From an uncultured Mediterraneibacter sp. (lineage in GTDB: Bacteria; Bacillota; Clostridia; Lachnospirales; Lachnospiraceae), in contig CALWMN010000016.1 in assembly GCA_944381935.1 (NCBI GenBank), positions 1 to 63,435 on the forward strand: DNA of 63,435 nucleotides, given 5' to 3'. The position numbers were made by a program, and so were the translations under genes. The notes beneath the pieces were generated by a model. That model saw only the letters and a program-made list of their open reading frames with translations, did no database searches and was not told the origin of the DNA. This document shows positions 4,459-24,748 of the stretch, piece by piece (position 1 is the first letter of the stretch; each line of letters starts with the position of its first letter).

Positions 4459-4526
4459 AAGGCAGAGATCAATTTACATAAGAACCAAAACAGCAGAAAA
4501 CGAATACTGGATGATTTAGGAGGAAA

Positions 4527-5273
4527 ATGACAATGGTGGTAAAAGTTGCGGTTCCGCAGCAGTTTAAATTAAGGGTGATCCCGGATATTAGGAGCTTCTT
4601 CTTCGGGGGACACAAAGAGATCCATTATATAGGGGGAACTGAGATTCTGCCGCCGCCCCTTGAGGGAAGGCAGGAAGCGGAGGCTATCGGGCGCCTGGGG
4701 ACAGAGTATGACGAGGAAGCCAGGAAGACGCTCATAGAGCATAACCTCCGTCTTGTCGTATACATAGCGAAAAAATTTGACAATACGGGCGTGGGTGTGG
4801 AAGACCTGATCTCCATCGGGACAATCGGGCTGATCAAGGCGATCAATACCTTTAATCCGACAAAGAAGATCAAGCTTGCAACATATGCATCGAGGTGTAT
4901 CGAAAACGAGATCCTGATGTACTTAAGGAGAAACAGTAAAACCAGGCTGGAGGTATCGATCGATGAACCGCTCAACGTAGACTGGGACGGAAACGAACTC
5001 CTTCTCTCGGACATATTGGGGACAGAGGAGGACACCATATACCGGGACCTGGAGAATGAGGCGGAGCGGAAGCTTCTTGTGCGGGCGCTCAATAAGCTTA
5101 ACAGCCGGGAGAAGCTGATTGTGAGGATGAGGTTTGGCCTGGATGATCCGGAGGGGAGAGAAAAGACGCAGAAAGAGGTGGCGGATATCCTCGGGATCTC
5201 GCAGTCCTACATATCGCGTCTGGAAAAGAAGATCATGCAGAGACTGAAAAGGGAAATGGTCAGGTACGAGTAA
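4527..5273 (+). CDS. sigE: RNA polymerase sporulation sigma factor SigE (pro-sigma-E)
   Basis: A 248-residue sigma-70 family factor controlling early mother-cell genes. Region 2 is clear ([20 protein letters not shown], then [12 protein letters not shown]), and region 4 ends [16 protein letters not shown]. About 35 residues precede the conserved [13 protein letters not shown], corresponding to the inhibitory pro-sequence; SpoIIGA is expected to cut just before this motif. AGGAGG precedes ATG 4527. A second in-frame ATG at 4533 is possible but less well spaced. Confidence 0.97.
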
Positions 5274-5311
5274 AAGATAGGAACAAAACAGATGTATTCT
5301 CTTCGGAAAAA

Positions 5312-5320
5312 TGGTACAAT
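5312..5320 (+). promoter_or_regulatory. Extended -10 element upstream of the metallo-beta-lactamase gene
   Basis: TGGTACAAT forms an extended -10 (TGn plus TACAAT 5315-5320) in the gap after sigE. No good -35 is visible at 16-18 nt, which extended -10 promoters can tolerate. It could make the downstream gene independent of the sigE transcript. Confidence 0.4.
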
Positions 5321-5351
5321 AGAAGAAAAGTGAAAAGGGTTGGTGAGGCGT

Positions 5352-6956
5352 ATGAAGCTTACATTTATCGGCGCTGCCCATGAAGTTACGGGAAGCTGCC
5401 ACTTTCTTGAGGCGGCGGGGAAAAACATTCTGATCGACTGTGGGATGGAACAGGGACCGGACCTGTATGAGAACCCGGGACTGCCGATTGCAGAGAGTGA
5501 GGTTGACTATGTATTCCTGACACATGCACATATCGACCACTCGGGCATGCTCCCAAAGCTGGCGAGGAACGGATTCAAAGGACAGATTTTTGCCACGTTC
5601 GCCACAGCAGACCTCTGTGATATCATGCTCCGTGACAGCGCGCACATCCAGGAGTTTGAGGCGGAGTGGAGAAACCGGAAGGGGAAGCGTGCAGGCAAGC
5701 CGGAATATGAACCGGCATATGTTATGCAGGACGCCCTGGATGCCATAGAATGTCTGGTTCCGTGCAATTACGGGGAGAGGATCACGATATGCGACGGAAT
5801 ACAGATCCGCTTCACAGATGTGGGACATCTGCTCGGATCCGCCAGCATCGAGGTATGGGCGACAGAGGAGGGCGTGACAAAGAAGATTGTATTTTCCGGT
5901 GATGTGGGGAATCTTGACCAGCCTATCATCAAGGACCCTACATATACGGAAACGGCTGATTATGTTGTGGTAGAATCCACCTATGGAAACCGGATACATG
6001 CGGCAGAAAAACCGGATTACATCGGGGAGTTTACCAGGATCATCCGTGAGACATTCGACCGTGGGGGGAATGTGGTGATTCCGTCCTTTGCAGTAGGAAG
6101 GACGCAGGAAATGCTGTATTTCATACGGGAGATCAAGGAGAAAAAGCTGCTGGAGGAATATCAGGACTTTGAGGTGTACCTGGACAGTCCCCTGGCAATT
6201 GAAGCCACCAGGATCTTTACCAAAAATATGCGGGACTGCTTTGACAAAGAGGCCCTGGATCTGGTGAATGCGGGGATCAACCCGCTTGTGTTCCCCGGAC
6301 TGCATACATCTACCACAAGTGAAGATTCCAAGATGATCAACTTCATCGAGAAACCAAAGGTGATTATATCCGCATCGGGAATGTGCGACGCAGGGCGTAT
6401 CCGCCATCATTTAAAGCACAATCTCTGGCGGCCGGAATGTACGGTGCTCTTTGTCGGGTATCAGGCGGCCGGAACGCTGGGACGCAGGCTTCTGGAAGGG
6501 GAAAAGAACATTAAGCTCTTCGGAGAAGATATCGAAGTCCGGGCCAGGATCGAGAGCCTCCACGGCGTGAGCGGCCATGCGGATATGAACGGGCTGCTCA
6601 AATGGATAGGAGGGTTCCGGACACCTGTCGAGAGGGTGTTCGTGGTCCACGGAGAGGATACGGTCACAGAGGAATTTGCCAGAACGGTTGAAGAGAAGTT
6701 CGGATACCCGTCATGGGCGCCTTATCCCTGCGGTGAGGCGGATCTTCTCAGGAACGAAATCATAAGCGAAGGTATCCGCATACCGGTGAAACCCAAAAAA
6801 GCTTCCAGGCGCAGGGCAGATACAGCCTTCGACAGGCTGGTCGAGGCAGGGAAAAGGCTGCTTGACATTATATACAGGAATGAAGGATTGTCAAACAAAG
6901 ACAAAGCCAGGTTTGAAAGCCAGATCAACAATCTTGCCGATAAATGGGATGACTGA
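5352..6956 (+). CDS. Beta-CASP metallo-beta-lactamase fold RNA-processing-like hydrolase
   Basis: About 534 residues. The N-terminal metallo-beta-lactamase domain carries the zinc motif THAHIDHSG (H58, H60, D62, H63), then DVGHLLGSASIEV and SGDVGN. The beta-CASP and RMMBL parts follow, with PSFAVGRTQEML, SASGMCDAGRIRHHL and LHGVSGHADMNGL. This arrangement matches the CPSF-73/YSH1-like family of RNA endo/exonucleases, although the physiological substrate is unknown. ATG 5352 fits the usual family N-terminus (MKLTFIGAAHEVTGS). Upstream in-frame TTG 5340 and GTG 5343 also exist, and the ribosome binding sites do not decide between them. The gene lies between sigE and sigG, which are adjacent in many spore formers. 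Confidence 0.88.
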   Translation: MKLTFIGAAHEVTGSCHFLEAAGKNILIDCGMEQGPDLYENPGLPIAESEVDYVFLTHAHIDHSGMLPKLARNGFKGQIFATFATADLCDIMLRDSAHIQEFEAEWRNRKGKRAGKPEYEPAYVMQDALDAIECLVPCNYGERITICDGIQIRFTDVGHLLGSASIEVWATEEGVTKKIVFSGDVGNLDQPIIKDPTYTETADYVVVESTYGNRIHAAEKPDYIGEFTRIIRETFDRGGNVVIPSFAVGRTQEMLYFIREIKEKKLLEEYQDFEVYLDSPLAIEATRIFTKNMRDCFDKEALDLVNAGINPLVFPGLHTSTTSEDSKMINFIEKPKVIISASGMCDAGRIRHHLKHNLWRPECTVLFVGYQAAGTLGRRLLEGEKNIKLFGEDIEVRARIESLHGVSGHADMNGLLKWIGGFRTPVERVFVVHGEDTVTEEFARTVEEKFGYPSWAPYPCGEADLLRNEIISEGIRIPVKPKKASRRRADTAFDRLVEAGKRLLDIIYRNEGLSNKDKARFESQINNLADKWDD

Positions 6957-9569: not shown

Positions 9570-10151
9570 ATGTTTATAATAGCCGGTCTTGGGAACCCGA
9601 CAAAGGAATACGAGGGCACCAGGCATAATGTTGGATTTGATGTAATAGACAGGCTTTCAGAAAAATACAATATATCGGTGGATATGAAAAAGCACCGGGC
9701 GTTGATCGGGAAGGGAATGATTGCCGGGCAGAAGGTGATCCTAGCAAAACCCCAGACATATATGAACTTAAGCGGGGAAAGCATACAAAGCCTCGTGGAT
9801 TACTATAAGGCGGATGAGACAAGAGAGCTGCTTGTCATATATGACGATGTAAGCCTTGGAGTGGGGCAGCTCCGCATCCGGGCGAAAGGAAGCGCGGGAG
9901 GCCACAATGGGATCAAGAATATTATTGCGAACCTGGGCAGCCAGGTGTTTCCCCGGATCAAGATCGGTGTAGGCGAAAAGCCGCCAAAGTATGATCTTGC
10001 GGACTATGTTCTCGGGCATTTTACAAAGGAAGAGCGGATTCTGATGGAGGAAGGATACGGCTGTGCGGCAGACGCAGTGGAGATGATCGTGTCGGGAAAT
10101 ATAGAAGGCGCGATGAATGAGTATAACAGGAAAAAGAAAGAAGAGAAATGA
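9570..10151 (+). CDS. pth: Peptidyl-tRNA hydrolase
   Basis: A 193-residue cytoplasmic esterase that frees tRNA from peptidyl-tRNA released by stalled ribosomes. Family motifs are GLGNPTKEYEGTRHNVGFDV (with the catalytic His), KPQTYMNLSGES, YDDVSLGVGQLRIR and KGSAGGHNGIKNI. Length is normal. The gene is followed at 18 nt by mfd, the pth-mfd order common in Firmicutes, and probably shares its transcript. Start ATG 9570 follows AGAGGATGATCAGAG. Confidence 0.97.
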   Translation: MFIIAGLGNPTKEYEGTRHNVGFDVIDRLSEKYNISVDMKKHRALIGKGMIAGQKVILAKPQTYMNLSGESIQSLVDYYKADETRELLVIYDDVSLGVGQLRIRAKGSAGGHNGIKNIIANLGSQVFPRIKIGVGEKPPKYDLADYVLGHFTKEERILMEEGYGCAADAVEMIVSGNIEGAMNEYNRKKKEEK

Positions 10152-10169
10152 AAGAAGGCGGTTGAGGAT

Positions 10170-13100
10170 ATGCAGGCTCTTTTGGCTCCCCTCTTGGAGC
10201 TGGCAGATTATCAGGAGATACAAAAAAGCAGAAGAGACGGGGAGGGGCTCATACAGATTGCAGGCTGTGTAAACTCTCAGAAAACACACCTGATGTACGC
10301 GCTTGGCGATGGCTGTGAATACAGAGTCATCGCTTTTTCCAGTGAAGAAAAAGCGAAAAGGACGTACGAAGAATACCGCTTTCTTTCAGATAATGTATAC
10401 ATGTATCCAGCCAGAGATCTTCTGTTCTACTATGCGGATATCAAAGGAAAGGTTCTGACAGGCAGGAGAATGGAGGTGTTAAGGGCGCTGATCGAAAAAG
10501 AAGAAAAGGCGCCTGTCACAGTGATTACGACGATGGATGCTTTCCTTGACGGGCTTCCGCACCCCGAAGAGATCAGGAAAAGCTGCATCAGGGCTGTGGC
10601 AGGGGAGATGATAGATTTTACCGGTTTCCAGGCGCAGCTTTCAGATCTTGGATATGAGAGGGAGAGCCAGATAGAGGCACCGGGTCAGTTCGCGGTGAGG
10701 GGCGGGATTCTGGATGTATTCCCTCTCACAGAAGAACTCCCGGTCAGGATAGAGCTGTGGGGAGACGAGATAGACTCTGTCAGAAGCTTTGATGTGGAGA
10801 GCCAGAGATCTGTTGAAAACCTGAGTGAAGTGACCATCTATCCCGCATCGGAAAACTGGAAAGAATCTTTGGGTGAGGTTTCTTTCCTGGAGTATTTCCC
10901 CAGGGAGAAGAGCCTCCTCTTTCTGGATGAACCATCCCGTCTGCAGGAGCAGGCGGAGACTGTGGAGCAGGAATATTTCCACAGCATGGACAGCCGGGAA
11001 GAGGCAGGGACGCTGGGGGAGGAGGTTCCCCTGAGGGTCTTTGAGACGAAAGACGTTATAGAGCAGATGAACCGCTACAGCGGAATCGGCTTTACGACCC
11101 TGGAATCGAAGTGCGGTCTCTTTAAAATAAGGCAGACGTACAGCATCCAGACAAAAGGGGTGAATCCTTACAATAACAGTTTTGAGCTGCTGACGAGGGA
11201 TTTAAAGCGCCTGAAGCGGAACGGGTACAGGGTGGTGCTCCTCTCAGGCTCCAAGACCCGGGCAAAGCGACTGGCGGAAGACTTGAGGGATTATGACCTG
11301 AGCAGCTTTTACAGCGAGGATATGGAACGTCTTGTCAATCCGGGAGAGATCATGGTGTCCTACGGACATGTGGCGGAGGGGTATGAGTATCCGATGCTGA
11401 AGTTTGTCGTGATCTCTGAGACAGACATTTTCGGAAAAAAGAAAAAAAAGAAGCGGCGCCGTGTGTATGAAGGACAGAAGATACAGAACTTTTCGGAGCT
11501 AAAGCCGGGAGATTACGTGGTGCACGAAAACCACGGGCTTGGAATCTACCGGGGCATTGAGAAGATTGAGGTGGATAAGGTCACAAAGGACTATATGAAA
11601 ATCTCCTATGCAGAAGGAGGGGTGCTCTATATCCCGGCAGGACAGATGGACCTGATCCAGAAATATGCCGGCGCGGATGCAAGGAAGCCGAAATTGAACA
11701 AGCTTGGGACCGCCCAGTGGGGAAAGACGAAGAGCCAGGTGAAGAAGGCGGTGCAGGCTGTGGCGAAAGACCTGGTAGAACTCTACGCGGCGAGACAGCA
11801 GTCGGATGGATTTGTCTATGGACCTGATACAGTGTGGCAGAAAGAGTTTGAGGAAATGTTCCCGTTTGAGGAAACGGAGGACCAGGCCCAGGCGATCGAG
11901 GACACAAAGCGCGATATGGAGAGCCATAAGATTATGGACCGCCTGATCTGCGGAGACGTGGGGTACGGGAAGACAGAGATTGCGATCCGTGCGGCGTTCA
12001 AGGCGGTCCAGGAAGGGAAACAGGTCGTCTATCTTGTGCCGACTACGATACTTGCGCAGCAGCACTACAATACCTTTGTCCAGAGGCTGAAAGATTTCCC
12101 GGTTCGGATTGACCTTCTGTGCAGATTCCGGACTTCCTATCAGCAGAAGAAGACCGTGGAGGATCTGAAAAAAGGCCTGGTCGACATTGTAATCGGGACA
12201 CACCGTGTCCTGTCAAAGGATGTGGGATACAAAGACCTGGGGCTCCTGATCATAGATGAAGAACAGAGATTCGGGGTAACGCATAAGGAAAAGATCAAAA
12301 AACTCAGGGAAAATGTAGATGTTCTGACCCTGACTGCCACGCCGATTCCCAGGACGCTGCACATGAGCCTGATCGGGATTCGGGATATGAGCGTCCTGGA
12401 GGAGGCGCCGATGGACCGTATGCCGATCCAGACCTATGTCATGGAATACAATGATGAAATGGTGAGGGAAGCGATTGAGAGAGAATTGGCGCGGGATGGG
12501 CAGGTGTATTATGTGTACAACCGGGTCAATGACATCGCAGATGTGGCAGGGCGTATCCAAAGGCTGATCCCGGAGGCCAATGTTTCGTTTGCGCACGGTC
12601 AGATGAATGAGCGCCAGCTGGAAGATATCATGTACGATTTTATCAACGGGGATATTGACGTCCTTGTATCGACAACGATCATAGAGACAGGGTTGGATAT
12701 CCCGAATGCAAATACCATGATCATCCAGGATGCGGACTGCTTCGGGCTTTCCCAGCTCTATCAGCTCAGGGGGAGAGTGGGGAGGTCAAACCGTATGGCA
12801 TATGCCTTTCTCCTGTACAGGAGAGATAAGCTGTTAAAAGAGGTAGCAGAGAAAAGGCTTGCAGCGATCCGTGAGTTTACAGACCTTGGGTCCGGTATTA
12901 AGATCGCCATGCGCGATTTGGAGATCAGGGGCGCCGGAAATCTGCTGGGGGAAGCGCAGAGCGGCCACATGGAAGCCGTGGGGTATGACCTGTACTGCAA
13001 GATGCTCAATGAAGCGGTGCGGCAGTTAAAAGGAGACGGTGAGGAAGAGGTGTATACGACGACGCTGGATTTGAATATCGATGCATATATACCGGATTCT

Positions 13101-18207: not shown

Positions 18208-18787
18208 TGTGTCTTCCTCCTTTCGTGATCTTCCCGAGACAAACAGAGATCTGCTTTATCATCCATTTAGACAGCAGAGTCGAGCCGTATACGCACAAGA
18301 TTCCCACTCCCAGCACCGTGATGCCCAACCCGATATTACACAGGGCATCGGGAAAGCTCTGGAAGAGCAGCGCCACACCGGCTGCAAAGGATATGATACC
18401 GGCTGCTGTGATGCAGACCGCTGCGATCAGGATGCTCAGAAGCACTGTGGCAAGGGCGATCAGAAGCGTGGCGATCACGACAACCAGCGCGAGAGCTATG
18501 GGAACTGCCACCGGGGCGGCGCAGATGCCAAGAATCCCGACCCAGACGGCAGACATCCCGTGCCTTACTGTCTTAGGGGGCTCTTTGGCATTTTGTTCTG
18601 CAAGATCCATGATCAGTTCCTTTGCAGCCTCCTCAGGGGTTCCCAGATCCTTTATGGCCTTCTCTTCATTTTCCGGCCCTGCTTCTGCAAAATATTCCTC
18701 AAAATATTCGACCGCCCTGTCATAATCCTCTCTTGGAAGCCGCCTGAGCCTGCGCGACAGGAGCTTCATATATTCATTCTTTGTCAT
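18191..18787 (-). CDS. DUF1700-family membrane protein
   Basis: A 198-residue protein. The N-terminal cytoplasmic segment has the family signature MTKNEYMKLLSRRLRRLP, followed by EYFEEYFAEAG and KDLGTPEEAAKEL. About four membrane segments follow (about residues 80-180) in a Leu/Ala/Val-rich region. I chose ATG 18787, seven bases after GGGAGGG; an upstream start at 18817 would add ten unsupported residues. It overlaps padR by 14 nt and DUF4097 by 17 nt, so the three are translationally coupled. DUF1700 proteins may act as transmembrane partners of PadR-controlled envelope functions, which is inference. Confidence 0.85.
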   Translation of the reverse strand: MTKNEYMKLLSRRLRRLPREDYDRAVEYFEEYFAEAGPENEEKAIKDLGTPEEAAKELIMDLAEQNAKEPPKTVRHGMSAVWVGILGICAAPVAVPIALALVVVIATLLIALATVLLSILIAAVCITAAGIISFAAGVALLFQSFPDALCNIGLGITVLGVGILCVYGSTLLSKWMIKQISVCLGKITKGGRHNENKE

Positions 18788-19100
18788 CAGATATCCCTCC
18801 CCTAATAATGTCGTCAATGATAAATTTGTAAGTTTCCCAATCCTTTAAAAGCGCCTTCTGCTGTGCCTGGCCAGCCGGCGTGATCCTGTAATATTTCCGG
18901 TTGCGTCCCTGGTACTGCCGGTCGTAAGTCTTGACATAGCCGTTTTCCTGCAGCCGTTTTAATACGGGATACAGCGCTGAATCTTTCATGTCAGCAGCCC
19001 TTTTGATGATCTGGCTGATCTGATAGCCATAGGCGTCGTCCTCCTCAATGACAGAGAGTACAAGCAGATCCATTATGGGAGCGTTTAGCGGAAACGTCAT
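18774..19100 (-). CDS. PadR-family transcriptional regulator
   Basis: A 108-residue winged-helix protein of the small PadR subfamily. Marks are APIMDLLVLSVIEEDDAYGYQ, the wing region SALYPVLKRLQENGYV and RKYYRITPAGQAQ, followed by a short dimerisation helix. PadR proteins are repressors that often control their own operon and a neighbouring membrane function. Here the palindrome in the promoter just upstream and the coupled DUF1700-DUF4097 genes fit autoregulation. Start ATG 19100 follows GAAGGAG. Confidence 0.93.
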   Translation of the reverse strand: MTFPLNAPIMDLLVLSVIEEDDAYGYQISQIIKRAADMKDSALYPVLKRLQENGYVKTYDRQYQGRNRKYYRITPAGQAQQKALLKDWETYKFIIDDIIRGGISDDKE

Positions 19101-19182: not shown

Positions 19183-19322
19183 CACATATATATAATTTTT
19201 AAAAATAAAGGGATGCAGAGCAGAGGAACAGCGGTTTTATACGAATTATTACTTTTCTCATTGCTGTGCGGGTTTATGAGGTATGCGTGTATACAATATT
19301 GTCTTAAATTCTTTGATTCCCC

Positions 19323-19384
19323 CATTGCATGTTATAGTGCAATGATGATATAATTCATAGTAGCGGTTTTTTGCCAATTTGGCA
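19323..19384 (+). promoter_or_regulatory. Promoter and two inverted repeats upstream of the DUF5717 operon
   Basis: TTGCAT (19325-19330) and a perfect TATAAT (19349-19354) are 18 nt apart. A perfect 7-bp inverted repeat, CATTGCA (19323-19329) and TGCAATG (19338-19344), covers the -35 and spacer. A second palindrome, TGCCAATTTGGCA (19372-19384), lies between the likely transcript start and the gene. Both look like operator sites. The rest of the 313-nt gap 19101-19413 is AT-rich and carries the padR promoter on the other strand. Confidence 0.6.
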
Positions 19385-19413
19385 TGGACAAGTTTTATGA
19401 GTAGGTGACGGAC

Positions 19414-22400
19414 TTGAAAAATAAGATCAAAAGATTCGCAAAAGGAGATTTTCACATTCCTCAGCCGGAGATCATTTTTCCGGAGACTCATATTATTATG
19501 CGGGTTGGGGAAGGAGAAGAATATAAAGGAAGTTTTTCGCTGCAGAACGAGGGGGAGGGAACGATAAGAGGGCTGGTCTATCCGTCTTCCTACCGGATTC
19601 ACTGTGCGGATGGAGGGTTTGACGGAAACCCGGTAAATATTTCTTACACTTATGACGGCAGGGGACTTGTGCCGGGGCACGTGGAGCATGGGAAATTTAC
19701 GATCGTGTGCAATGGCGGGGAGTTTGACCTTGCCTTTACGGCGATCATTGAGAAACCGTTTGTCATGACACGCTATGGAAAGGTGCAGAGCCTCGAGGAT
19801 TTTAAGCGCCTTGCATTCCATGATGCGGCGGAGGCGGAAAAGCTGTTCCGCTCCCGGGATTTTTACGAGATATTGAAGTATGAGGATATGCGGATTCAGG
19901 CGCTCTATGACAATATGCGCAAATGGGAGCTGGACCAGCATGGCCTGGAAGAGTTTCTTGTGGGATGTAAGCAAAAGGAGAAGATATTCTTGACTCTGGA
20001 GGAGGAGAGCAGGGCGTTTATCTCCCTGGCAGAAGCGCGCAAGGAGACTTTTACCATCAAGAAGAATACATGGGGATACCTTGAGATTGATGTCCGTACG
20101 GAAGGAGATTTTCTTCAGGTAGAGCACAGCCGCATTACAACAGAGGAGTTCATCGGAAATTCCTATCGCCTGGAATATTTCATTACGCTGGAGGATCTTC
20201 ACAAGGGGAGCAACTTTGGCCAGATCATACTGGAAACACCTTATGAGACGCTGAGCTATGAAATCGTGGTTGAGAAAGAGATCAGCCGGGACGAGGAGCG
20301 CAGGGACAATGACAAAGAGTTTGCCGGGATTGTCAAAGGATATCTGGCATATGAGGGCGGCAGGAAAGACCTGAATACGTGGACGGAAGATGCGCTGAAA
20401 AGAATCGGGCACCTCCGGGATGTGGACGGCAAAAACGAAATTTATCTCCTGGTGAACGCCCATATCTGTCTGCTTGGGGGACGGCTGGAAGAGGCAAAGT
20501 GGCTTTTGGAGTCCTACAATTATAATCGTTTCGCGATAGGCAGGGATGTGGAGATGAGTTCTTATTATCTGTATCTGACAACACTGCTGAGCAATGACTC
20601 GATTGGACAGCGCAGAGTGGCGGAAGAGCTTTCCAGGTCGTTTATGAAGCATCCCGGAAGCTGGCTTATCCTTTGCATGCTGGTGGAAGTGGATTCGGAA
20701 TATAAGATATACAGTGAACGGCTACGCGCTCTGGAGACGCAGTTTTACGAAGAGGGGACGCACAGTATCTGGTTCTATCTCCAGGCGTTCCGGTGCTATC
20801 GGGAAAAGAGTTCCTCCCTTAAGAAGCTGGGAGTGTTTGAGGTAAGAGTCCTTCTGTTTGCGGTAAAGTATAAGCTGATGACAAAAGAACTCGCCCTGTA
20901 TACGGCGAATCTGGCAAGCCAGATGAAGACGTTTGACCGTCATCTCTACAAGGTGCTGGTGATGGCGTACGAGATGTATGGGGAATCTATGATCCTCACC
21001 GCGATCTGTACGCTTCTTATTAAAGGAAACTGTGTGGACGGATGCTATTTTAAATGGTATGAGAAAGCGGTAGAATCAGAGCTGAAGATCGCGCAGCTGT
21101 ATGAGTATTATATGGCGTCGGCTCAGCCGGCAAAGTTCCACAAGCCGCTTCCGCGTTCTGTGTATCTGTATTTCATGCATGGGAACTCGCTGGATTACCA
21201 TAAGTGTGCATTTCTTTATGCCAATTTGATTATCTATGAAGATGAAGGCAGCGAAATATATACGCACTATAGAGATGAGATGGAAGCCTTTGCGTGGAAT
21301 CAGCTGGAGAGAAGGAACATAGATGAGCAGCTACGCACGATTTACAAGAGATTTATCGTGGAATCCTCTATGAACCCGGAACGTATAAAGGCATTATATG
21401 ACATCTGCCATGCCTACTGGATTACGACAAAGGTGCCGAATATGAAGTATATCCATGTGATTTCGGAGGATGGAACAGTCACCCAGAAGGCGGCATATAT
21501 GGAGAACGGGGCAAGGGTATTCCTGTATGCAAAGACGGACCGGCTTGTATGGGAAGCGAAGGACGGCAGGCATTATACCGATTCCATCCCATATGATAGC
21601 AAACGCCTGTTCTATGAGCTGAGATATATGGATATGTGCAGGAAATACATCAACGGACTGCTGCGGAACCGGGAGGAGGAGTCTGCCGGAGAGCTCACGC
21701 TTGAAACGGTCAGGAAAAGGGGCGTGGAAAATTTTCCGGAGGAAGAGATATTTAGCCTCTGCAGCAGGACGATCCGGGAGAATAATTATGAGAACGATGA
21801 TTTCCTCACCTACGTGTGCTTTGATCTGTTTAAGAGACACCAGTATGACAAGGTGATCCTTACGTACCTTGCGAATTATTACTGTGGCGCGACTCAGGAT
21901 ATGAAGCTGCTCTGGAGAGAGGCAAAGGATTATGAGGTTCATACGCATAAGCTTGCGGAACGGATTCTGACTCAGATGCTGTTCTCAGAGGAACTCTTCC
22001 AGGAGGCCCAGGTATTTGAGGAATACTATGAGGAAGGCGCATACTTTCGCCTTCAGCAGGCATATCTGGCATATGTTTCCAGGGAATATGTCGTGGAGGA
22101 GAGAAGAATCGGGAGAAATGTGATCGATATCATCTGCCGGGAATACGAAAAGGGCGAGGATACGATAGATATATGTAAACTGGCGGTTCTGAAGTATTAT
22201 TCTTCCAGGGAATATAATTCTCAGACGCGCAGGACGCTTAAGAAGTTTCTCAGGGAGATGTGCAGCAGACAGATCTATTTTCCGTTTTTCCTTTCATATG
22301 AGAAAGAGTGGCTGATCGAGCTGCAGCTATGGGATAAGGTTCTTATTGAATATAAAGGCCAGAAGGGAAGCCGGGTGATGCTTTATTACCAGCTTCAGAA

Positions 22401-22707
22401 AGGCGGACGGGAGCCGGCAGATTATTCTACGGAAGTGCTTACTCCCATGTATGATAATCTGTATGTGAAAAAGTTTGTACTGTTTGCAAATGAAAAGCTG
22501 AAATATTACTTTAAAGAAACGATAGACGGAAATTCCTACCGCAGCAGCAAGGAGACCTGTATGCGTGAGGTGACAGAGGACGAGCAGGGCAGGTATGGCA
22601 GGCTCAATGATATCCTTCTGGAAAAGAATGAAAAAGAACGGGAGAAAAAGATGAGGGAGTATGCGCTGGAGGACGCAGTGGCGGCCCACATGTTTGAACA
22701 ATATTAA
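19414..22707 (+). CDS. Giant DUF5717-family protein: two Ig-like domains plus helical repeats
   Basis: About 1097 residues, cytoplasmic by appearance (no signal peptide or membrane segment). Two beta-rich Ig-like modules lie at about 12-110 and 205-290; the first (VGEGEEYKGSFSLQNEGEGT) resembles Ig-like domains found next to bacterial Hsp70-like proteins. The remaining 800 residues are helical, Tyr/Glu/Leu-rich and look like a TPR-type solenoid. TTG 19414 is preceded by AGGTGA at good spacing; GTG 19405 is an alternative without such a site. I recognise the family as DUF5717, typical of Lachnospiraceae; its function is unknown. It is first in an operon with DUF5716 (15-nt gap) and a TPR-like gene. 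Confidence 0.8.
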   Translation: MKNKIKRFAKGDFHIPQPEIIFPETHIIMRVGEGEEYKGSFSLQNEGEGTIRGLVYPSSYRIHCADGGFDGNPVNISYTYDGRGLVPGHVEHGKFTIVCNGGEFDLAFTAIIEKPFVMTRYGKVQSLEDFKRLAFHDAAEAEKLFRSRDFYEILKYEDMRIQALYDNMRKWELDQHGLEEFLVGCKQKEKIFLTLEEESRAFISLAEARKETFTIKKNTWGYLEIDVRTEGDFLQVEHSRITTEEFIGNSYRLEYFITLEDLHKGSNFGQIILETPYETLSYEIVVEKEISRDEERRDNDKEFAGIVKGYLAYEGGRKDLNTWTEDALKRIGHLRDVDGKNEIYLLVNAHICLLGGRLEEAKWLLESYNYNRFAIGRDVEMSSYYLYLTTLLSNDSIGQRRVAEELSRSFMKHPGSWLILCMLVEVDSEYKIYSERLRALETQFYEEGTHSIWFYLQAFRCYREKSSSLKKLGVFEVRVLLFAVKYKLMTKELALYTANLASQMKTFDRHLYKVLVMAYEMYGESMILTAICTLLIKGNCVDGCYFKWYEKAVESELKIAQLYEYYMASAQPAKFHKPLPRSVYLYFMHGNSLDYHKCAFLYANLIIYEDEGSEIYTHYRDEMEAFAWNQLERRNIDEQLRTIYKRFIVESSMNPERIKALYDICHAYWITTKVPNMKYIHVISEDGTVTQKAAYMENGARVFLYAKTDRLVWEAKDGRHYTDSIPYDSKRLFYELRYMDMCRKYINGLLRNREEESAGELTLETVRKRGVENFPEEEIFSLCSRTIRENNYENDDFLTYVCFDLFKRHQYDKVILTYLANYYCGATQDMKLLWREAKDYEVHTHKLAERILTQMLFSEELFQEAQVFEEYYEEGAYFRLQQAYLAYVSREYVVEERRIGRNVIDIICREYEKGEDTIDICKLAVLKYYSSREYNSQTRRTLKKFLREMCSRQIYFPFFLSYEKEWLIELQLWDKVLIEYKGQKGSRVMLYYQLQKGGREPADYSTEVLTPMYDNLYVKKFVLFANEKLKYYFKETIDGNSYRSSKETCMREVTEDEQGRYGRLNDILLEKNEKEREKKMREYALEDAVAAHMFEQY

Positions 22708-22722
22708 GGAGGGTGTCTTTTC

Positions 22723-24006
22723 ATGGCACAGGGCAATATAATCGGATACGAGATCAATGAAAAAACATGCCAGATCAGTTACTATAACGAGCAGCAGATG
22801 GAACCGGAAACCCTGGAAGTTGACGCCGATAATTATCAGATTCCACTGATTATCGGAAAACTGAGGGATACATGGGCGTACGGCAAAGAGGCAAAGCGGC
22901 TTGTCACGATCAAGGAAGGGTTTACCGTGACAAGGCTTTTAAGCAGGAGCCTTGCGGGGGACCGCATCGAGTTTGGGGAAGAGACATATGACGCAGTTTG
23001 GCTGCTCTCCCAGTTTATCCAGATGTCGCTGCAGGCATTTCCCCAGATTGACGGCATTGTGTTCAGTGTTCCCAGCCTGACAGAGGAACTTGCCCAGATG
23101 CTCAGAGGGATCGCGGTCCGCATGAATATTGACAAACGGCGTATCTTTATACAGGACTATAAGGAAAGCTTCTGCAATTATCTGTTCTATCAGCCGAAAG
23201 AGCTGTGGCAGTATGATGCGGCTCTGTTCTGCTGTGACCGAAATGAGATAAAAGCGTATATGCTGAGGAGGCTCAAACCCGGACTGGGCGGAGGCAAGAC
23301 GACATTTGTCACCGTGGACGAGGTGGCAAGCGCCCATATGAAAGAGCTGGCCATGGTCTATCCGGTGCTGAACGAGGATAAGGCAAAAGAGGCGGATGCC
23401 ATGTTCTGCAAATTTATAGAGAGCGTGTTTGATAAAAGGATCGTTTCATCCGTATTTCTGACGGGAGAAGGATTTGAGAATAACTGGTATCCGAAGGCGC
23501 TGCGCGTGCTCTGCAACGGCAGGCGCGCTTTCATCGGGAACAATCTGTACAGCAAAGGAGCATGTTATACCGCATACCGTAAGCTTTACATGCATATTGA
23601 GAACCCGGTTTATCTCTCGGAGGATAAACTGACAGACCAGATTACGGTTAATATGAGGGTCGAGGGACAGGAGATGTGGTATCCCATCGTATCCTGGGGG
23701 GCGCACTGGTATGAGTCGAACAACCAGTGGGAAGTGCTCATGGAAGATGTGGAGGATATTGAATTTCATATAGAATCTCTGATCCAGGGAAACCTGAAAA
23801 CGGAAAAGATCTCTCTTGCAAAATTCCCGAAGCGGGCAGAATACTCCATGCGCCTGCAGATCGAAACACTCTTCCTGGATGAAAAGACATGTAAGATCAC
23901 TGTGCGTGATGTGGGATTTGGGGATTTTTTCCTGCCGACAGATTTCCAGGAAGAGAAGACGATTCATTTAGGAGGCAACGATGGGAAATTTAATTCTTTG
24001 TCATGA
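22723..24006 (+). CDS. DUF5716-family protein with degenerate Hsp70/actin-like fold
   Basis: A 427-residue protein. Residues 5-20 (NIIGYEINEKTCQISY) sit where the first phosphate loop of an ASKHA ATPase would be. Residues 110-155 (GIVFSVPSLTEEL, then IFIQDYKESFCNYL) fit subdomain Ib and the start of IIa. VFLTGEGF (244-251), GRRAFIGNN (266-274) and LYSKGACYTA (275-284) closely follow the adenosine-binding end of DnaK-like proteins. The expected second phosphate DxG is not obvious (ALFCCDRNEIKAYM), so ATP hydrolysis is doubtful. Residues 300-427 are a separate beta-rich region. It is coupled to neighbours by short spacing upstream and a 26-nt overlap downstream. Assignment as DUF5716 is from memory; the ASKHA reading is inference. 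Confidence 0.78.
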   Translation: MAQGNIIGYEINEKTCQISYYNEQQMEPETLEVDADNYQIPLIIGKLRDTWAYGKEAKRLVTIKEGFTVTRLLSRSLAGDRIEFGEETYDAVWLLSQFIQMSLQAFPQIDGIVFSVPSLTEELAQMLRGIAVRMNIDKRRIFIQDYKESFCNYLFYQPKELWQYDAALFCCDRNEIKAYMLRRLKPGLGGGKTTFVTVDEVASAHMKELAMVYPVLNEDKAKEADAMFCKFIESVFDKRIVSSVFLTGEGFENNWYPKALRVLCNGRRAFIGNNLYSKGACYTAYRKLYMHIENPVYLSEDKLTDQITVNMRVEGQEMWYPIVSWGAHWYESNNQWEVLMEDVEDIEFHIESLIQGNLKTEKISLAKFPKRAEYSMRLQIETLFLDEKTCKITVRDVGFGDFFLPTDFQEEKTIHLGGNDGKFNSLS

Positions 24007-24748
24007 CAAGCATGCAACGCATCCCTATGAAATTACCAGGATACACTGCAGGATCTTTACAATTGAGGAACTCTGCTATTATCTGTGCAATAACCTGTAT
24101 CTCATCGATTATACCATTATGAACGAGCAGCTGTGCGCATGGCTTGAGGAAGAAATCGATATGAAAGCCCTTGCGGACAGCCTGAGGGATGTTCTGCGCC
24201 TGAGAGGGTCTGTGGAGAAATTCGTCCTTACGATCCTTAAAGCATCCAGGATCTACAGGGAACCCCAGATGATCCATATTCAGAATGTCCTGGAGCATCT
24301 GAAAAACCAGAAAGACATAGAGCGACAGAAATTCAAGGGGGACAACCTCCTGGAAAGCGGTGAGATCGAGGAGGCGATCCTTGTATACCAGACAATTTTA
24401 AATGAGGAAAAAGACGAGAGCGTTGACGAAAAATTTTACGGGAAGATCTATGCCGGACTCGGGGCAGCCTATGGAAGGCTGTTTTTGTATCAGGAATCCG
24501 CGCGCATGTATGACAGGGCATATCAGATATGTGAGGACAAGGCGCTGTTAAAACCTTATCTGTATGCTTCCTATAAATATATGTCGATGGAGGAATATCA
24601 TATTTTGATCACGAAGCATGAAGAATATATGGAGGTAAATTCCCAGATGCGGGCTGAGATTGGCGAAATCCGGGATAATCTGCAGATAGAACCGAGCCGG
24701 GTCCTCCTTGAAAAGTGGAAACGTCAGCACCGCAGGAACCATGCCTGA
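23981..24748 (+). CDS. TPR-like helical protein, third gene of the DUF5717 cassette
   Basis: A 255-residue, mainly helical soluble protein. The N-terminal 75 residues (MGNLILCHDKHATHPYEI, then LCYYLCNNLYLIDYTIMN) are a separate unrecognised domain. From about residue 108 the pattern ERQKFKGDNLLESGEIEEAI, YGKIYAGLGAAYGRLFLYQE and MYDRAYQICED shows two TPR-like helical hairpins. ATG 23981 follows TTAGGAGGCAACG located within the end of DUF5716; the 26-nt overlap implies coupled translation. No catalytic motif is visible. It probably acts as a partner in a complex with the two upstream products, by inference from operon structure. Confidence 0.8.
   Translation: MGNLILCHDKHATHPYEITRIHCRIFTIEELCYYLCNNLYLIDYTIMNEQLCAWLEEEIDMKALADSLRDVLRLRGSVEKFVLTILKASRIYREPQMIHIQNVLEHLKNQKDIERQKFKGDNLLESGEIEEAILVYQTILNEEKDESVDEKFYGKIYAGLGAAYGRLFLYQESARMYDRAYQICEDKALLKPYLYASYKYMSMEEYHILITKHEEYMEVNSQMRAEIGEIRDNLQIEPSRVLLEKWKRQHRRNHA

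Follow-up and report, generated by a model that had tools for sequence, protein, structure and literature searches.

A degenerate Hsp70 and two partner genes in Lachnospiraceae appear to be the remnant of a seven-gene Hsp70/GrpE cluster

A set of three adjacent genes was analyzed in a 63,435-nt contig of an uncultured Mediterraneibacter sp. (Lachnospiraceae; GenBank assembly GCA_944381935.1, contig CALWMN010000016.1), and this whole stretch is called the window here. The genes encode a DUF5717 protein, a DUF5716 protein and a tetratricopeptide repeat (TPR) protein, together called the trio. Three described systems come closest to it. The first is DnaK, the bacterial Hsp70 (PF00012). DUF5716 resembles DnaK in its profile and fold matches and in its layout, a nucleotide-binding domain (NBD) followed by a domain like the beta part of the substrate-binding domain (SBD-beta); it differs from DnaK in having no lid, no catalytic Glu and no phosphate-2 loop, and in missing about 70 residues. 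The second, Ssz1 from the yeast ribosome-associated complex, is the nearest working analogue; the available part of PMC8476630 presents it as an atypical Hsp70 that lacks the usual ATP-regulated cycle and acts with a scaffold partner. Structures 5mb9, 6sr6 and 4gni are among the best DUF5716 matches. Ssz1 differs in being eukaryotic and in pairing with a J-protein, Zuo1; a further difference is the loss, in DUF5716, of the region between phosphate 2 and adenosine. The third is the group of GAP1-N2 GTPase-centric systems, the nearest published neighbourhood. In the available text of PMC7159879, HSP70, GrpE and beta-sandwich/TPR proteins occur together in these systems around a GTPase and GAP1 core, which is not seen among the proteins scanned here, and with one HSP70, or a second in a subset, against four in the cluster described next.

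Other families of the same order carry a seven-gene cluster (members p1 to p7), whose members 1, 4 and 7 have their counterparts in the trio; the other four are a GrpE-domain protein and three Hsp70s that retain intact motifs. On sequence comparison, the trio appears to be the reduced form of this cluster, and the Hsp70 that it retains seems incapable of burning ATP. This gives two Pfam families without a known function an identity, as a degenerate Hsp70 and its scaffold, kept in nearly all sampled genera of a major gut family. The trio and the full cluster form a natural experiment on what remains of an Hsp70 machine once its engine is removed. No description of either was found in a literature search that left most subscription papers outside; DUF5716 returned one unrelated paper and DUF5717 none.

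DUF5716 is a divergent Hsp70

The three open reading frames (ORFs) are tightly packed on the plus strand (Table 1). DUF5717 and DUF5716 are separated by 15 nt, and the TPR ORF overlaps DUF5716 by 26 nt; the ORF positions bear out the layout given in a first-pass annotation made from the sequence alone. Pfam matches were PF18984 (E=5.6e-207) and PF18983 (7.7e-102) for DUF5717, and PF18980 (DUF5716_C, 6.2e-101) for DUF5716. An NCBIfam search of the three proteins gave nothing informative.

DUF5716 consists of an NBD and a lidless SBD-beta-like domain, with a degraded ATPase signature. A profile search of PDB with DUF5716 finds DnaK. The structural matches of the DUF5716 model are DnaK and yeast Ssz1 (Foldseek, VIA-align), and Ssz1 ties for the best match in VIA-align. 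Cluster member p5 serves as a bridge: positions 180-288 of DUF5716_C match p5 residues 414-534, overlapping the HSP70 match of p5 at residues 28-513 (Pfam). In the model, strands at residues 306-415 form a beta domain after the NBD, and the Foldseek alignments with DnaK cover both domains; the VIA-align rows cover mainly residues 2-304 and barely test the SBD-beta part. The model has no helical lid (SBD-alpha), and the chain ends right after the beta domain. The first-pass annotation had read an adenosine-end motif at residues 244-284 and proposed an ASKHA fold. The motif is there and lines up with the adenosine motifs of DnaK, and the fold is of the Hsp70 type according to the PDB profile match, p5, Foldseek, VIA-align and the tree described below. 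An actin identity of the FtsA/MreB type was also considered and appears unlikely: the top sequence and fold matches listed are Hsp70s, with no FtsA or MreB among the best 50 of each fold list.

The two partner proteins were also read largely as the first-pass annotation had proposed. The AlphaFold2 (AF2) model of DUF5717 predicts immunoglobulin (Ig)/ASH-like modules joined to helical solenoids; two further beta modules were found besides the two Ig-like modules and the long solenoid suggested earlier (Table 1). Its mean predicted local distance difference test score (pLDDT) is 82.4; its predicted template modelling score (pTM) is 0.43, so the placement of the domains relative to one another is unsure. 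TPR models fall below their cut-offs in the window copy of the third protein (best E 0.014, Pfam). Among its relatives, TPR_14 matches 20 of 23 at E<=1 and the best TPR E-value is 4.4e-5, and the repeats are strong in the counterpart p7 (TPR_2, E 4.9e-26). The N-terminal 100 residues or so of the TPR protein are a family-specific region.

The seven-gene cluster and its reduction

Members of the cluster follow one another in a constant order: DUF5717-like p1, Hsp70 p2, GrpE-domain p3, degenerate Hsp70 p4, Hsp70 p5, Hsp70-VWA p6 and TPR p7. Twenty-one cluster loci were read (L150-L163, L195-L201), several of which end at contig ends. In 21/21 loci the members that are present keep the same order and strand, with other ORFs interspersed in some. 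All seven members were present in 11 loci by ORF picking; a tblastn search added p5 in L156 and L199 and raised the number to 13. By ORF picking, p1 was found in 15 of the 21 loci, p2 in 17, p3 in 20, p4 in 21, p5 in 17, p6 in 15 and p7 in 14. The lengths of p1 to p7 in L153 are 1127, 558, 643, 522, 550, 691 and 386 aa. There, p3 (9870-11801) has its GrpE domain at the C-terminus (E 3e-13) and no other Pfam match above cut-off, and p6 (4495-6570) has a VWA domain after its Hsp70 part, in place of the lid.

The trio corresponds to p1, p4 and p7, with one-to-one homology and the same gene order. Queries were run at E<=1e-5 against 26 Lachnospiraceae loci. The p1, p4 and p7 queries matched only DUF5717 (24), DUF5716 (26) and TPR (25) ORFs, respectively; p5 matched only DUF5716 (18 ORFs), and p2, p3 and p6 matched nothing. 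In the tree, the DUF5716 rows lie nested among those of p4, and their nearest neighbour is the L150 protein. A profile of the N-terminal 100 residues of the TPR protein (26 members) picked out a single ORF per locus in the 14 loci with p7 (E<=2.9e-10), the next of 242 ORFs scoring 0.055. The flanks are partly shared as well. A pyridoxal phosphate (PLP) aminotransferase gene lies near the trio in 13/26 loci by clustering (12 by BLAST) and directly 5' of the cluster in L195 and L199, and ValS is a neighbour of two loci in Lachnospiraceae and of three with the cluster; these shared flanks favour loss in place. Gone from the Lachnospiraceae trio are p2, p5 and p6, the Hsp70s whose ATPase motifs are intact, and p3 with its GrpE domain. 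GrpE genes over cut-off numbered one in each of 17 family genomes and at least two in each of seven cluster genomes.

The ATPase motifs were compared by alignment, with residues numbered as in E. coli DnaK. All of Asp8, Gly10, Thr11, Thr12, Glu171, Asp194, Gly196-198, Thr199 and the adenosine GGS are intact in p2, p5 and p6 (17, 17 and 14 rows; the split ORF p6_L150 was dropped from the tree and the counts). Among 21 p4 rows, Asp8 is kept in 21, Asp194 in 20, Gly196 in 19, Glu171 in four, Thr11 in three, and Gly198 and Thr199 in none. None of the 33 DUF5716 members has the intact motifs (GxDxGTT, Glu171, DxGGGT, GGS). All 33 lack Thr11, Glu171, Gly198 and Thr199, as well as the second adenosine-motif Gly, and Thr12 is kept in one. 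The spacing from phosphate 2 to adenosine is 143 residues in DnaK, 134-152 in p4 and 60-78 in DUF5716 (33/33; 78 in the window). In DnaK this stretch contains subdomain IIB, which closes over adenine and contacts GrpE. The roughly 70 residues gone from DUF5716 would be subdomain IIB, judging from the alignment. The loss of this stretch together with the GrpE-domain protein of the cluster is, in our view, the most telling single fact.

These counts bear on whether DUF5716 could still run on ATP as a functional Hsp70, only with an unusual active site. The phosphate-1 Asp (Asp8) in 29/33 members and the strong conservation of the protein speak for such an enzyme. The motif residues lost throughout, the missing stretch between phosphate 2 and adenosine, and the single GrpE gene left in each family genome tested speak against it and make it very unlikely.

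Several points weigh against the reading of DUF5716 as a reduced, ATP-uncoupled Hsp70. Its model reaches a pLDDT of 65.7 overall and a pTM of 0.58, with residues 158-186 and 191-273 below 50, and the Foldseek TM-scores across both domains are 0.31-0.40. Because the model is weak there, conclusions about nucleotide binding and about the missing subdomain depend on the alignment, whose columns in the degenerate loops are uncertain. Pfam HSP70 matches one of the 33 members (E 0.051), and the window copy gave no PF00012 match at E<=1. Asp194 is retained in 21/33 members (the window copy has Glu at position 8 and Cys at 194), and with Asp8 and Asp194 retained, many members may still bind nucleotide weakly. 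The loss of the ATPase signature predates the reduction, since p4 already lacks much of it. The tree was made by a quick method with 17 of the 33 DUF5716 rows (every second was dropped) and carries a long-branch warning. L057, which has a longer open frame, was excluded from alignment A1. Unrelated ORFs lie between members in several cluster loci, and L154, L159, L162, L163 and L198 are without some members, not all of them cut at contig ends.

Spread, linkage and possible function

The spread of the trio was determined with one genome per genus from 200 Lachnospiraceae genera; the family goes by this name here because the named loci closest to the window point to Mediterraneibacter or a close relative, a genus that NCBI assigns to Lachnospiraceae. 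DUF5716_C was found in 195/200 and the C-terminal model of DUF5717 in 195/200. Even draws from the phylum gave DUF5716_C in 4/299 genomes and DUF5717 in 5/299, and an even draw from the class gave DUF5716_C in 9/245, all within Lachnospiraceae. A draw within the order gave DUF5716_C in 89/196 (22 Lachnospiraceae, 67 from other families); the model also matches the related p5, and the order counts include such matches. No match of either family above cut-off was found outside the order in the draws made, nor in 14 control genomes. These draws support the earlier proposal of a lineage-specific, chaperone- or scaffold-like gene set. Several exceptions fit it less well. Five of the 200 family genomes, three of them at least 90% complete, have no DUF5716 match. 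The match is single in all but two of the 195 genomes (G521 and G529 have two). The fifth DUF5717 match, to the C-terminal model in a genome outside the family (G125), is weak and below cut-off (E 6.5e-4). A Lachnospiraceae-type DUF5716 (E 3.9e-94) was also seen in a genome of another family (G710, family f8, contig C40:2962-3861), by transfer, misplacement or contamination.

The linkage is near-constant; the homologues are not found mostly apart from each other. DUF5717 lies directly 5' of DUF5716 in 33/33 loci from 33 genera, in 80/80 named loci and in 20/20 wider loci. The TPR gene lies directly 3' in 32/33 (by a gap rule), 78/80 and 20/20. The exception to the gap rule (L063) has the TPR frame, with an open frame that overlaps further. 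L135, without a TPR ORF, and L118, which stops before the TPR position, also count as exceptions. Across 26 loci of 14-26 kb, the trio alone is common to all, and the next shared gene occurs in 14. Both DUF5716 and DUF5717 are under purifying selection: in eight pairwise comparisons the nonsynonymous rate (dN) was 0.03-0.23 and the synonymous rate (dS) was above 1.5 or saturated. The first-pass annotation had concluded from the gene coupling that the three proteins form a complex of fixed stoichiometry. Such a complex may exist; gene coupling alone does not establish it. The fold, the linkage and the lineage-specific gene set of that annotation stand, while it had missed the origin from the cluster, the catalytic degeneracy, the SBD-beta-like domain and a fourth, membrane gene.

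A conflict or defence system akin to the GAP1-N2 GTPase systems, with HSP70, GrpE and fibronectin type III (FNIII)-TPR proteins, is extremely unlikely in view of this spread, near-universal in the family and not patchy. Its appeal lies in the similar component list in the available part of PMC7159879 and in PADLOC candidate models that match p5 (PDC-M61B, 8.7e-11), p6 (4.5e-7) and p7 (PrimPol 4.2e-6, PDC-M71B 4.4e-6). These matches probably arise via shared Hsp70 and TPR parts, and PADLOC finds nothing in the trio. No GTPase or GAP1-like Pfam match was seen in the trio or the seven L153 proteins (the 116 unassigned neighbour ORFs were clustered, and a few of them Pfam-scanned). Carriage as phage cargo was also considered and rejected: window DUF5716 has no close relative in viral contigs, in a search of viral contigs only that detects close relatives only because six short peptide patterns were used.

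The trio is probably the remnant of a larger machine, now an ATP-uncoupled, Hsp70-derived scaffold that holds or sorts clients or peptides. In the ancestor, the DUF5717-like and TPR proteins would have been the base on which a multi-Hsp70 machine assembled, with p4 as the subunit that did not hydrolyse ATP. The ATP-burning subunits and the exchange factor would then have been lost in Lachnospiraceae, and subdomain IIB of p4 alongside them. The SBD-beta of DUF5716 and the Ig/ASH faces of DUF5717 may bind a client or a partner's tail, with the TPR protein as a second docking surface. The vestigial NBD of DUF5716 would offer a platform for interactions, as the yeast protein Ssz1 does, and the scaffold perhaps lends clients to housekeeping DnaK. 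A bolder version, offered tentatively, makes this a core feature of Lachnospiraceae: an ATP-free, Hsp70-derived machine in which a pseudo-Hsp70 on an Ig/solenoid scaffold would hold or sort clients mechanically, evolved by shedding three ATP-burning Hsp70s and their GrpE partner.

The main rival gives the trio no autonomy. DUF5716 would act as an Ssz1-like adaptor that recruits or positions housekeeping DnaK on clients through NBD-NBD contact, while DUF5717 and the TPR protein choose the site. This fits the tied best structural match to Ssz1 and the statement, in the available part of PMC8476630, that the yeast Ssz1 NBD binds ATP-bound canonical Hsp70. HSP70 and GrpE matches were found in 24/24 genomes, so partners for an adaptor exist; in the window genome, HSP70 matches DnaK, one DnaK paralogue and two further proteins taken as MreB-like from their match range and length. 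The DnaK gene lies on another contig, and no J-domain is among the Pfam matches listed for the trio and the seven L153 proteins (25 of 30 listed for p7), which leaves the adaptor possible but doubtful.

The fourth gene, p8, encodes a protein with two predicted transmembrane segments between coiled-coil-like arms (L174:10142-11329 and relatives, alignment A6), and no Pfam family above cut-off was found in five members scanned. It lies directly 3' of the trio in 20/33 Lachnospiraceae genera and has a match in 13/13 cluster genomes tested. A caveat on these counts is that 16 of the proteins found with the p8 model had also gone into building it. The absence of p8 from 5/5 genomes of the window's genus, the window genome included, sits poorly with a role for it in the scaffold. 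The scaffold reading would have p8 tether the scaffold to the membrane in many genera, though not in the window's genus. The adjacency of p8 to the trio and its presence in the cluster genomes could also suggest a non-chaperone role, in which p8 anchors an Hsp70-derived scaffold for the envelope, division or sporulation, and Ig/ASH and solenoid folds are common in scaffolds. This is unlikely, as the window's genus keeps the trio where p8 is absent, and the GrpE protein and three intact Hsp70s of the fuller cluster point to a chaperone.

Start site and upstream region

The TTG at 19414 is invariant in 15 aligned sequences and is likely the DUF5717 start, judged with the AGGTGA upstream of it; an alternative GTG at 19405 gives a protein of 1100 aa. 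The TATAAT of the likely promoter lies at 19349-19354; the candidate is absent from the listing of a consensus promoter scan.

Table 1 Coordinates of the trio, its domains and motifs, and upstream elements in the window
Feature	Position	Strand	Basis
Near-palindrome GTATGCGTGTATACAAT, pattern GTATRC-N-TGTATACAAT, candidate operator upstream of likely promoter	19281..19297	+	15-sequence alignment, related loci
Likely promoter TTGCAT-18-TATAAT	19325..19354	+	-10 invariant in 15 aligned sequences
Shine-Dalgarno AGGTGA for DUF5717 TTG start	19403..19408	+	Identical in all 15 aligned sequences
DUF5717 protein, 1097 aa, counterpart of p1	19414..22707	+	ORF, Pfam
Ig-like beta-sandwich 1, DUF5717 residues 27-124	19492..19785	+	AF2 model
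Second beta-sandwich, DUF5717 residues 193-288	19990..20277	+	AF2 model, VIA-align
Helical solenoid 1, DUF5717 residues 294-665	20293..21408	+	AF2 model
Beta module, DUF5717 residues 667-731	21412..21606	+	AF2 model
Helical solenoid 2, DUF5717 residues 736-969	21619..22320	+	AF2 model
C-terminal beta module, DUF5717 residues 975-1050, then helices	22336..22563	+	AF2 model
DUF5716 pseudo-Hsp70, 427 aa, counterpart of p4	22723..24006	+	ORF, Pfam, fold matches, tree
Phosphate-1 equivalent GYEINEKTC, residues 8-16 (DnaK GIDLGTTNS)	22744..22770	+	Alignment
E171-region equivalent QDYKES, residues 144-149, Tyr in catalytic Glu column	23152..23169	+	Alignment
Phosphate-2 equivalent CCDRNE, residues 170-175 (DnaK DLGGGT)	23230..23247	+	Alignment
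Adenosine motif equivalent VFLTGEGF, residues 244-251	23452..23475	+	Alignment
NNLYSKGACYTA, residues 273-284, aligned with DnaK NPDECVALGAS	23539..23574	+	Alignment
SBD-beta-like C-terminal domain, DUF5716 about residues 304-415, no helical lid	23632..23967	+	Pfam, model, Foldseek
TPR protein, 255 aa, counterpart of p7	23981..24748	+	ORF, profile search

The near-palindrome was tried as a regulon marker and is unsupported as such: matches with at most one mismatch, against a reversed-pattern control, numbered 13 against 5, 15 against 9, 9 against 7 and 9 against 5 in four genomes. A perfect TTGACA-17-TATAAT lies at 19182-19154 on the minus strand of the window, upstream of a divergent gene (18774-19100), which may encode a PadR-type regulator.
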